Shown piece after piece: positions 19,942-27,571 of a DNA stretch of 64,000 bases. The notes below the pieces were generated by a model. That model saw only the letters and a list, made by a program, of their open reading frames with translations, was not told the origin of the DNA and ran no database searches. The stretch spans positions 1-64,000 of the forward strand of contig JAJXUE010000009.1 in NCBI GenBank assembly GCA_021783135.1. Reading direction: 5' to 3'. This stretch comes from Bacillota bacterium. GTDB lineage: Bacteria > Bacillota > Desulfitobacteriia > Desulfitobacteriales > JAJXUE01. Position 1 is the stretch's first letter; every line of letters begins with the position of its first letter. The position numbers and the translations under genes are program-made.

Positions 19942-20197
19942 AAATTAAGCACACTTAAATGCGATGAATGGGAAGTCAGATAGCATTGTCCTTGATAGAG
20001 AGGGGTCGCCATAGGCTGCGAGTGACCTAAGGTTAGCTATTGAAGTGCGCCCGGGAGCAGTTTTGCTGAAAATATGTAGGCAAATCCGGCAGCCGCCGTT
20101 ATCGGTCGCTCCTTTAGGAGTGGTGAGGGGGGTCTTTGACCCAAACAGAGTGGAAACGCGAGTCTTCTTCGTCTCTGTCGAGAGGAAGAGGACTTTT
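19942..20197 (+). ncRNA. T-box riboswitch, cysteine-specific
   Basis: A roughly 250-nt leader with T-box landmarks: an AGAGAGGGG distal-loop element near 19998 followed by GGCTGCGAG, a specifier region TGAAGTGCGCC in which UGC at 20046-20048 encodes Cys, and the T-box AGAGTGGAAACGCG at 20147-20160. The UGGA bulge predicts pairing with a U73 discriminator (UCCA end), as expected of tRNA-Cys. It ends in an intrinsic terminator and precedes cysE-cysS. Uncharged tRNA-Cys should favour read-through. Apparent short frames within it are not genes. Confidence 0.9.
20161..20197 (+). terminator. T-box-controlled intrinsic terminator
   Basis: AGTC plus TTCTTC and CTCT (20161-20176) pair with AGAGGAAGAGGACT (20181-20194), with a GTCG loop region and a run of seven T. 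It overlaps the 3' side of the T-box, as needed for an antiterminator switch. Confidence 0.85.
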
Positions 20198-20259: not shown

Positions 20260-20934
20260 GTGTTTAACCGTGTACGCAAGGACATAAAGGTTATCTTTGA
20301 ACGTGATCCAGCTGCAAAAAGCGTATTGGAAGTAGTCCTCTGTTATCCTGGTCTGCATGCCATCCTTATGCACAGAATTGCGCATAAACTTTATGGCCAA
20401 GGTTGGGTTATTTTACCGCGTTTGATTTCTCAGTTTGCCCGCTTTTTGACCGGTATCGAAATTCATCCTGGGGCAACCATCGGCGAAGGACTTTTTATCG
20501 ATCATGGCACCGGGGTGGTTATTGGTGAAACCGCCGAGGTAGGTAATAATGTTACTATTTATCAGGGAGTGACCTTGGGTGGGACAGGCAAGGAAAAAGG
20601 CAAACGGCACCCGACTATTGGCAACAATGTTGTTATAGGCTCCGGGGCTCGAATTCTAGGATCTTTTACCGTTGGCGACAATGTAAAAATAGGTGCAGGT
20701 TCGGTAGTAACTAAGGCCGTTCCTCCTAATACTACTGTCGTTGGGGTACCTGGTCGAGTGGTAGCGCGTGGAGGGGTGAACATTGCAGATGTCAATTCAG
20801 TAATTGACTTGCACCACGAGAACTTGCCGGATCCAGTGGCAGAAATGCTGATTTGCATGCAACAACACGTCCAACGCTTGGAACACAGAATAAGTATATT
20901 GGAGGGGAAAGCCAGTGAGTCTGAAACTCTATAA
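20260..20934 (+). CDS. cysE: Serine O-acetyltransferase
   Basis: CysE makes O-acetyl-L-serine from serine and acetyl-CoA, the carbon skeleton for cysteine. The 224-aa protein has the N-terminal helical domain ([15 protein letters not shown]) and a left-handed beta helix of hexapeptide repeats from about residue 68 to 170 ([31 protein letters not shown]). GTG start with GGGGAGGG SD. It follows the Cys T-box and overlaps cysS by 20 bp, so cysteine synthesis and charging are controlled together. Confidence 0.96.
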
Positions 20935-22772: not shown

Positions 22773-23537
22773 ATGTTCGGACGGGATGGGATGACCTTGG
22801 ATGATTTAATTTACGGACGCAATTCGGTTTTGGAAGTTTTAAAGAGTGGCAGGCCTGCTAACAAGCTGATGTTGGCGAAAGGTCTACTTACCGGTTCGGC
22901 TAAGGAGATTGTTGCACTAGCCAGGGATAAGAAGTTGCCGATACAAGAGGTGGATCGTAAGGTTTTAGATGGTGTAGTTGAAAACGCCAATCATCAGGGC
23001 GTTGTACTCTACCTTGCGGCCAAAGAATACGTAGAATTAGAAGATATCCTGGAGCGGGCTACACAAAGGAAAGAAGTTCCCTTTATTCTGGCCCTTGATG
23101 AAGTGGCCGATCCACATAATCTGGGGGCCTTGATTAGAACGGCTGAAGCTGCAGGGGCCCACGGTGTAATAATTCCCAAACGGCGTGCCGTTGGACTTAC
23201 CGGTGCAGTTGCCAAAGCTGCAGCAGGCGCAGTGGAATATGTCCCAGTAGCGCGTGTAGCCAATCTTAGCCAAGCTTTGGCAAAATTAAAGGACGCCGGC
23301 TGCTGGGTGGTAGGTGCTGACATGCAAGGCGAGAAGTATCCGTACGATGTTGATCTGCAAGGTCCCCTGGTATTAGTGATTGGTGGCGAACATAAGGGTC
23401 TAGGCAGATTATTACGCGAAAATTGCGATTTCGTAGTCAAAATACCTATGTTCGGTCAAATTTCCTCGCTGAATGCGGGGGTGGCAGGGTCGGTATTAAT
23501 GTACGAAGCGGTACGGCAAAGATTACAAAAACAGTGA
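22773..23537 (+). CDS. rlmB: 23S rRNA (guanosine-2'-O-)-methyltransferase RlmB
   Basis: A SPOUT/TrmH-family methyltransferase of 254 aa: an N-terminal substrate-binding domain (DDLIYGRNSVLEVL), then the knotted SAM domain with DEVADPHNLGALIRTAEAAG near 108, VIGGEHKGL near 206 and SSLNAGVAGSVLMYE near 229. G2251 of 23S rRNA is the usual target. The start is uncertain: ATG 22773 lies 2 bp after mrnC without a clear SD, and ATG 22791 is an alternative. Confidence 0.92.
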   Translation: MFGRDGMTLDDLIYGRNSVLEVLKSGRPANKLMLAKGLLTGSAKEIVALARDKKLPIQEVDRKVLDGVVENANHQGVVLYLAAKEYVELEDILERATQRKEVPFILALDEVADPHNLGALIRTAEAAGAHGVIIPKRRAVGLTGAVAKAAAGAVEYVPVARVANLSQALAKLKDAGCWVVGADMQGEKYPYDVDLQGPLVLVIGGEHKGLGRLLRENCDFVVKIPMFGQISSLNAGVAGSVLMYEAVRQRLQKQ

Positions 23538-23565
23538 GCAATTGGCTGGCGATGAAAACTTGACC

Positions 23566-23595
23566 TTGACTGTCTTCTTTTATTTCAGTTATAAT
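23566..23595 (+). promoter_or_regulatory. sigH promoter
   Basis: TTGACT (23566-23571), 18 bp, TATAAT (23590-23595). Transcription would start near 23602, giving a leader of about 105 nt before the TTG start codon. Confidence 0.8.
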
Positions 23596-23623
23596 GGAAT
23601 TGTCTGTATCGACTAACGATAAC

Positions 23624-23700
23624 CGCCTCCGTTGCTGGATTGCAGAGACGTAAAGCGATACTATGGTTCAAAAACTAATCTTAATTCTAAAACGGAGGCG
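23624..23700 (+). promoter_or_regulatory. SD-sequestering leader helix of sigH
   Basis: CGCCTCCGTT (23624-23633) is the exact reverse complement of AACGGAGGCG (23691-23700), which contains the sigH Shine-Dalgarno sequence. The 10-bp GC-rich helix would enclose 57 nt and hide the ribosome-binding site. This suggests control of SigH translation by a ligand, protein, RNA or transcription-translation timing. It is inferred from sequence only. Confidence 0.5.
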
Positions 23701-23707
23701 ATAAACT

Positions 23708-24355
23708 TTGAGTGTTAGCGCCCCAAAAGATTTACCCGAATCTCTCGTTGACGCGCTAATTGATGAAGAGGTTGTGGAACTGGCTAAAGAGGGCGATGAC
23801 GCTGCTCTAGAATACCTAATCAATAAATACAGGAATTTTGTGCGAGCTAAAGCTAGGTCCTATTTTTTAATCGGAGCAGATCGCGAGGATATTATCCAAG
23901 AAGGAATGATTGGCTTATATAAAGCCATTCGCGATTTCCGTGGGGACAAGCTGTCATCGTTTCGGGCATTTGCTGAATTATGCATAACTCGACAAATTAT
24001 TACTGCTATTAAGACTGCAACAAGGCAAAAGCATATTCCGCTTAATTCCTATGTTTCGCTCAATAAACCTATATATGATGAAGACTCTGACCGAACGCTA
24101 CTGGATGTAATTTCGGGAACTAAGATAACGGATCCCGAGGAGTTAATCATCAGTCGCGAAGAGTTTGATGATATAGAAGAAAAAATGGGTGAAATTCTTA
24201 GCTCGTTGGAATGGAAAGTTCTGATGTCTTATCTGGAGGGTAAGTCCTACCAAGAAATTGCTGTAGACCTTAGAAGGCATGTGAAGTCGATTGACAACGC
24301 CTTGCAACGGGTTAAACGCAAATTGGAGAGATACCTGGAAAAAAGGGATAAATAG
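23708..24355 (+). CDS. sigH: RNA polymerase sporulation sigma factor SigH
   Basis: Sigma-H (Spo0H) directs early sporulation and stationary-phase genes. The 215-aa sigma-70 family protein has region 2 (YLINKYRNFVRAKARSYF, EDIIQEGMIGLYKAIRDF, the -10 helix ITRQIITAIKTATRQK) and region 4 (LEWKVLMSYLEGKSYQEIA, RHVKSIDNALQRVKRKL). TTG start with CGGAGGCG SD 7 nt upstream; that SD is complementary to an upstream leader segment. Its position after rlmB and before the tRNA and rpmG-secE-nusG genes is the standard Firmicute context. Confidence 0.96.
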   Translation: MSVSAPKDLPESLVDALIDEEVVELAKEGDDAALEYLINKYRNFVRAKARSYFLIGADREDIIQEGMIGLYKAIRDFRGDKLSSFRAFAELCITRQIITAIKTATRQKHIPLNSYVSLNKPIYDEDSDRTLLDVISGTKITDPEELIISREEFDDIEEKMGEILSSLEWKVLMSYLEGKSYQEIAVDLRRHVKSIDNALQRVKRKLERYLEKRDK

Positions 24356-24371
24356 ACTACATAGCATAGAT

Positions 24372-24398
24372 AAGGGCCAAAGGGGTCCTTTTATTTTT
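24372..24398 (+). terminator. Terminator after sigH
   Basis: AAGGGCC (24372-24378) pairs with GGTCCTT (24384-24390, one G-U), followed by TTATTTTT. Nothing gene-like was found between here and the tRNA cluster; a 13-bp palindrome CTAGTTATACTAG lies at 24461-24473. Confidence 0.7.
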
Positions 24399-24597
24399 AA
24401 CTTAGGCAAGGATAAACACGTCAACTTTAGCTGAGTATATCTAATACGTGCTCAAACACACTAGTTATACTAGAGTTATCCAAGGAAAACGAAGCGAGTG
24501 CTGTTTGTGCCCTATAAAGGCAAAAAATTACAAGTAAATATTGTTCTTGCAAAAGTAATAGTGCTATGATACTATAATTTCTGCGGTCAAAAAGCAA

Positions 24598-24673
24598 GCC
24601 GACGTAGCTCAATTGGCAGAGCAGCTGATTTGTAATCAGCAGGTTGCGGGTTCGAGTCCCATCGTCGGCTCCA
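24598..24673 (+). tRNA. tRNA-Thr (anticodon UGU)
   Basis: Cloverleaf with acceptor GCCGACG/CGTCGGC, D-arm TAGCTCAATTGGCAGAGCA, anticodon stem-loop CTGATTTGTAATCAG (TGT) and T-loop GGTTCGAGTCC. CCA is encoded. First of three clustered tRNAs. Confidence 0.95.
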
Positions 24674-27409: not shown

Positions 27410-27541
27410 GCACCACAGGTGAATAGGTATGCTGACTGTAGAAAGTAGGTGCCGTAAGGCTTAATTGATGCCTACCGAGGTTGGGTAAAGCTATGTTTGA
27501 TATGGACATTCTTGACCTCTGCAGTTTGCAGAGGTCTATAT
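27410..27541 (+). ncRNA. Ribosomal protein L10 leader with attenuator
   Basis: The 205-bp gap between rplA and rplJ holds GTAGGTGCC near 27446, paired with the complementary GATGCCTAC near 27468 and followed by CGAGGTTGGG, features of the L10(L12)4-binding leader of Firmicutes. It ends in a perfect 10-bp hairpin GACCTCTGCA/TGCAGAGGTC (27514-27536) and TATATTTTT, an attenuator-type terminator. L10-L12 binding would favour termination. Confidence 0.75.
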
Positions 27542-27571
27542 TTTTGAGTATGAGTCAAAGGAGGTGGACAA

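Follow-up and report, generated by a model that had tools for sequence, protein, structure and literature searches.

A leader arm complementary to the Shine-Dalgarno sequence of sigH, its recurrence across a phylum and its possible role in masking translation

SigH is an early sporulation sigma factor, and the leader of its gene in the stretch of Bacillota DNA analysed here (64,000 nucleotides, hereafter the window) raises the question of whether this messenger can hide its own ribosome-binding site. The initial annotation had claimed that an exact 10-bp complement of the Shine-Dalgarno (SD) sequence lies 57 nt upstream in the same leader and near the predicted 5' end, and both statements are borne out. 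The upstream arm is located at about +23 to +32 of a transcript whose start, near 23602, is placed by promoter prediction only, and its exact complement overlies the SD of a TTG-initiated sigH gene. The features of the locus are as follows.

23566..23595 (+): predicted sigma-A promoter, TTGACT-18-TATAAT, 11/12 positions, start ~23602
23607..23621 (+): small 5' hairpin UAUCG/CGAUA directly 5' of the arm in the predicted fold of the window leader
23624..23633 (+): anti-SD arm CGCCTCCGTT, first eight bases invariant across three family genomes
23634..23690 (+): 57-nt loop separating the arms, without conservation across the family's two genera
23663..23704 (+): 13-codon upstream reading frame (MVQKLILILKRRR), in the sigH frame, stop 3 nt 5' of the TTG
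23691..23700 (+): SD arm AACGGAGGCG, exact complement of the anti-SD arm, core GGAGG at 23694-23698, 9-nt spacing to the TTG
23708..24355 (+): sigH, TTG start, 215 aa, SigH profile match

Translation from the TTG at 23708 yields a protein that matches the SigH equivalog profiles NF006148 (415.7 bits) and TIGR02859 (379.7 bits). Promoters comparable to the one predicted here precede sigH in 128 of 138 rows, compiled from two overlapping genome sets (58 + 80). When the segment 23602-23730 is folded, both arms are fully paired, and the leader possesses the inverted repeat with one arm over the SD that characterizes ribosome-binding-site-sequestering sigH leaders of the Staphylococcus aureus type. 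No matches other than these two arms are present in the 64-kb window (shuffled windows contained 0.14 on average, with two matches also in 2/100 shuffles).

Chance had been considered an unlikely source of such a match at the SD, a judgement that the comparisons within this genome uphold. Dinucleotide shuffles of the window leader produced an SD-covering complement of at least 10 in 60 of 200,000 cases (~3 in 10,000). Moreover, among 318 genes with an SD of at least 5, sampled from the window and 20 stretches of the same genome (G000), sigH ranks first, having the longest SD-overlapping complement (10, followed by 9, three of 7 and the rest at 6 or below). The energy predicted for opening its SD, 13.3 kcal/mol, is likewise the highest of the 318 (median 2.7); in the equivalent sample from a second genome of the family (G001), sigH occupies the fourth place of 229. 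Complements of at least 6 to the SD are generally scarce among genes with a GGAGG-type SD, being found in 4/144 sampled genes of G000 (sigH included) and in 3/117 of G001, while GCCTCC and GGAGGC spaced by 40-70 nt are found at three sites genome-wide, two of them besides sigH. Another signalling gene whose SD is masked was noted on contig C3 of this genome (L160:1198-2460): it codes for a histidine kinase of PAS/HisKA/HATPase organization, its SD (AGGAG) lies within a 9-bp upstream complement, and its SD opening energy is the third of the 318.

The arm is retained among near relatives. All three genomes of the family (f1; G000, G001 and G002) carry CGCCTCCG together with GGAGGCG in the sigH leader, with the CCTCC and GGAGG cores set 61-63 nt apart. 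In the remainder of the leader, all three genomes agree at 36 of 92 columns, and the longest invariant run is the arm itself (8; next 4). Since a run of this kind alone has a probability of 3-5% by chance, conservation within the family is by itself modest evidence. The helix, 10 bp long in the window, is shorter in the relatives, with 8 Watson-Crick bp in G002 and 7 in G001, and complements as long as those of the two relatives appeared in 533/200,000 (G002) and 1451/200,000 (G001) shuffles of their own leaders. RNAalifold, applied to the three leaders, pairs the eight shared positions. Ranked by leader opening energy among the 138 sigH rows, the four f1 rows, one of which is a duplicate genome, take the 1st, 2nd, 4th and 5th places. 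The arm is absent from the two best-sampled sister families, f2 (Desulfosporosinus and kin) and f3, in which the SD is mostly of the GGGGGG type and mostly GGGAGGG, respectively. CU-rich stretches preceding the SD in these two families (UCUUC, UCCUUC) were considered as candidate arms and are not claimed as such, because their consensus fold energies are near zero. A separate feature of the sigH SD is the occurrence of GGAGGCGA instead of the usual GGAGGTGA in 35 of the 138 rows, distant arm-less relatives included.

Since GCCTCC was also seen in Moorella-type leaders once these were re-read as predicted transcripts, we widened the search to the phylum. SigH was detected at an E-value of 1e-60 or better in 357 of 398 genomes, with leaders drawn from the best-scoring part only; of the resulting 262 loci, 37 were dropped for want of a usable predicted promoter, leaving 225, and removal of 37 duplicates left 188 unique leaders. 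Transcript starts in all leader counts are predicted from promoters, and the significance values ignore relatedness. An SD-covering complement of at least 6 is present in 21 of the 97 leaders that have GGAGG and do not exceed 140 nt, versus 1.1 expected. Similarly, when leaders of up to 150 nt are admitted, 24 of the 101 unique ones with a GGAGG SD contain CCTCC versus 3.45 expected, and in all 24 it is part of GCCTCC. Control 5-mers in the same 101 leaders were observed, relative to expectation, 6 versus 3.0 times (CCACC), 9 versus 3.4 (CTCCC), 3 versus 3.4 (CCCTC), 3 versus 4.4 (TCCCC), 1 versus 3.6 (GGAGG) and 5 versus 2.5 (CCGCC); a further control, CCTTC, was found 13 times versus 4.6 expected, with 9 of the 13 being f3 rows. 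At the loci themselves, a complement of at least 6 covers the SD of 15/54 sigH genes versus 6/161 other genes with a GGAGG SD, and one of these six (L126, start near 2997) may itself be sigH.

Counted by family, GCCTCC, the complement of an SD reading GGAGGC, occurs in 33/98 rows and 14/40 families, whereas no more than 4 families were reached in 300 shuffled sets; when only the first row per family is considered, the count is 12/40. The rows concerned are f1 3/3, f16 12/13, f36 3/3, f37 2/2, f50 2/2, f81 2/2, f34 2/3, f45 1/3 and f31 1/3, with f6, f20, f68, f77 and f120 contributing 1/1 each. Arm-bearing leaders among the named records, which lie outside this family count, include those of Moorella thermoacetica DSM 21394 (L085) and a Thermanaeromonas MAG (L086). 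For the two f81 arms (L275, L287), the true transcript start is probably further downstream, because on reading TATAAT follows them; they were retained, and without them the counts become 31/96 rows and 13/39 families. What can be read directly from the sequences is that the two arms exist, that such a pair is rare, that the family conserves it and that GCCTCC recurs in other families. The proposal that the leader can mask the sigH SD is thus sustained both in the family (3/3 genomes) and in the wider survey (14/40 families), and masking of the SD by the leader's own arm is, as a prediction, well supported.

Several leaders fall outside these counts. In L206, as judged by reading, the arm is GCTCC and the helix is shifted inward (CTCCATTT/AAATGGAG); L072 likewise has GCTCC, in a shifted helix of 10 pairs with one G-U, and neither enters the 14/40-family figure. 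L091 (Desulforudis J_13) contains a 19-bp stretch perfectly complementary to its SD region, with the upstream arm preceding the predicted promoter and close to a contig end; this is probably an assembly fold-back and was excluded through the use of predicted transcripts.

A second motif was encountered near the 5' ends of these leaders. Of the 188 unique sigH leaders, 75 have GGACAA in the first 32 nt downstream of the predicted start, versus 1.4 in base shuffles, at positions +4 to +17 and mostly at +8 or +9 (for example in L085, L205, L219 and f2 leaders such as L007). CCTCC is also present in 26 of the 75, and the three f1 leaders do not contain GGACAA. The complement of GGACAA is reminiscent of a Spo0A box.

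Could GCCTCC, then, be a site just 3' of the promoter for a protein that binds DNA or RNA, conserved in its own right and matching the SD only incidentally? Such a site would account for a core that never varies and for its rather constant position relative to the predicted start (in most rows between +17 and +41) versus a spacing to the SD that, in arm-bearing leaders, spans 25 to 122 nt, and the presence of GGACAA near +8 in many leaders would be in keeping with it. However, GCCTCC is exactly complementary to the SD together with the base that follows it, and this base, a C after GGAGG, is present in 24/24 arm-bearing leaders versus 49/77 arm-less ones of up to 150 nt (Fisher 1.5e-4, relatedness ignored). 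Furthermore, the window match spans 10 bases, CGCCTCCGTT is not over-represented genome-wide (5 matches versus 10 for the reversed control) and the gap between GGACAA and the arm varies. The 25-122 nt spread is also easier to reconcile with RNA pairing than with a DNA operator of fixed phasing, and we consider the protein-site explanation unlikely.

Less probable still is a chance complement in the window, with sigH translated constitutively in the ordinary way. The figure of ~3 in 10,000 leader shuffles has to be set against the many genes that a reader may scan, and the fold of the whole window leader is only mildly unusual (z-score -1.78; 7/200 shuffles equally stable), yet this is countered by an arm that all three family genomes retain and that recurs in 14 of 40 families.

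Ribosomes might alternatively open the helix themselves by translating the upstream frame across the SD arm, with sigH being translated by coupling. The window frame does exist in the appropriate register and ends just before the TTG, and in G001 and G002 a 20-codon frame spans the SD and the sigH start. Nevertheless, the start, reading frame and sequence of these frames differ between the genera and, by eye, no clear SD precedes them; the frame at 23663-23704 is probably incidental, and control by a leader peptide appears very unlikely. Finally, a riboswitch, thermometer or terminator-type attenuator, of all of which SD masking is a usual output stage, is highly improbable here, as the loop differs between the two genera of the family, no Rfam match was obtained in the leaders checked (with the limited column identity outside the arm noted above), the SD is predicted by the model to have an unpaired fraction of 0.004 at 75 C, the sole terminator-like site in 23400-24600 lies after sigH (24372-24390), and no such site was detected in the G001 sigH leader (L003 1300-1560).

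Pairing between the arm and the SD is therefore the reading that we pursue, and its helix is predicted with a probability of at least 0.80 in 25 of 29 arm-bearing leaders, while it is not the favoured fold in the remaining 4. Covariation among relatives, which had been named as a check on the masking proposal, gives a divided answer: the arm is conserved, whereas compensatory change between the arms is weak. The GCCTCC 6-mer is invariant across rows because it served as the selection criterion, so that only the flanks, which are poorly conserved, are informative. The first inner flanking pair is standard (G-C, A-U or G-U) in 16 of the 19 rows outside f16, with 186 of 5000 permutations as good; in f16, the Moorella family, it is standard in just 1/10 rows, and the three flanking pairs taken jointly are not significant (569/5000 permutations as good). 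Occlusion of the SD by folding energy was also considered as a general property of sigH leaders and rejected, the mean z being 0.24 over 118 leaders, and 49 leaders combine GGAGGC with the absence of an arm, a further point against the pairing reading.

We place at roughly two in three the probability that the 5'-proximal anti-SD arm pairs with the SD, holds sigH translation low and is opened by some factor. The arm would be transcribed early and be ready when the SD emerges. According to the model, until the SD is made the arm is partly free or held in a weak hairpin at 23624-23657 (-8.7 kcal/mol), after which it is fully paired. The suggestion that the intervening bases could form an alternative structure holds to the extent that this hairpin is present in the model; however, the masked state is favoured by ~13 kcal/mol, and the corresponding hairpin of G001 is different. 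With the SD transcribed, the arm would pair with it over 10 bp in the window and, in relatives, over a core of 6 bp that in some cases grows to 7-9 bp, and the paired arm would keep sigH translation low. That cells form the helix, and that it lowers translation and is regulated, is our inference. Given the ~13 kcal/mol preference for the masked state, opening would presumably require an RNA or protein binder or a ribosome that wins the race: most likely, the arm or loop would be captured by an RNA or an RNA-binding protein, or else a ribosome would load before the helix closes. Hfq, CsrA and Spo0A are encoded by 3/3, 2/3 and 3/3 family genomes, respectively, and nothing was found in these genomes that links any of them to this sigH leader. 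As sigH has its own predicted sigma-A promoter, masking would add a translational threshold to sporulation entry.

The recurrence of this stretch before sigH in many relatives suggests that translation may be a further point at which entry into sporulation is controlled. We further offer, tentatively and at somewhat short of even odds, a generalization to this phylum of mostly spore-forming anaerobes: an undescribed translational gate on sigH would operate through a 5'-proximal GCCUCC arm, often behind a GGACAA near +8 that might act as receptor for the opener, and commitment to sporulation would be set by release of sigH translation together with Spo0A.

Control of this general kind is already known. 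Staphylococcus aureus does not sporulate, and its sigH leader resembles the present one in gene and in having an inverted repeat with one arm over the ribosome-binding site. In the available part of the original report, a 13-base inverted repeat in the leader is proposed to sequester the ribosome-binding site and to limit SigH at translation, and removal of one half of it freed SigH expression in every cell at similar mRNA amounts (PMC3486894); a later paper, seen in excerpt, states that the leader is thought to suppress translation (PMC9072672). The likeness is drawn from these partial descriptions, by which the staphylococcal repeat lies just upstream of the start codon and its sigH output is competence, whereas here 10 bases are separated by a 57-nt loop and the upstream arm is near the 5' end. 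A second precedent comes from the spo0A leader of Clostridioides difficile, on which, according to the accessible text, the sRNAs SpoX and SpoY act with opposite effects, SpoX being proposed to open the leader structure and make the ribosome site accessible (PMC10267692). As far as that text goes, this too is a sporulation-entry gene controlled at translation, although the gene is spo0A rather than sigH and the opener is known there. In Bacillus subtilis, spo0H is reportedly, judging from the title of Healy et al. 1991, under post-transcriptional control, which would concern the same gene. The open-access literature, represented mostly by titles and abstract beginnings, yielded no account of a GCCUCC arm in the sigH leaders of clostridia, nor of the 5'-proximal placement, the loop size or the recurrence across families; with coverage of that sort, a missing description is not proof of absence.

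If the masking helix does hold off SigH translation in many families, it would constitute a second checkpoint for sporulation entry, the 1991 title on spo0H would gain a candidate mechanism outside Bacillus, and the staphylococcal sigH gate would be no mere curiosity. Beyond sporulation, the portion of a study on Sporomusa available to us proposes that SigH acts on acetogenesis genes as well and mentions SigH-type motifs also in Moorella thermoacetica and Thermacetogenium (PMC12456013).

Two other leaders in the window score above the Rfam thresholds, namely a T-box leader at 19955-20179, which precedes the frame at 20260, and a ribosomal protein L10 leader at 27418-27551.
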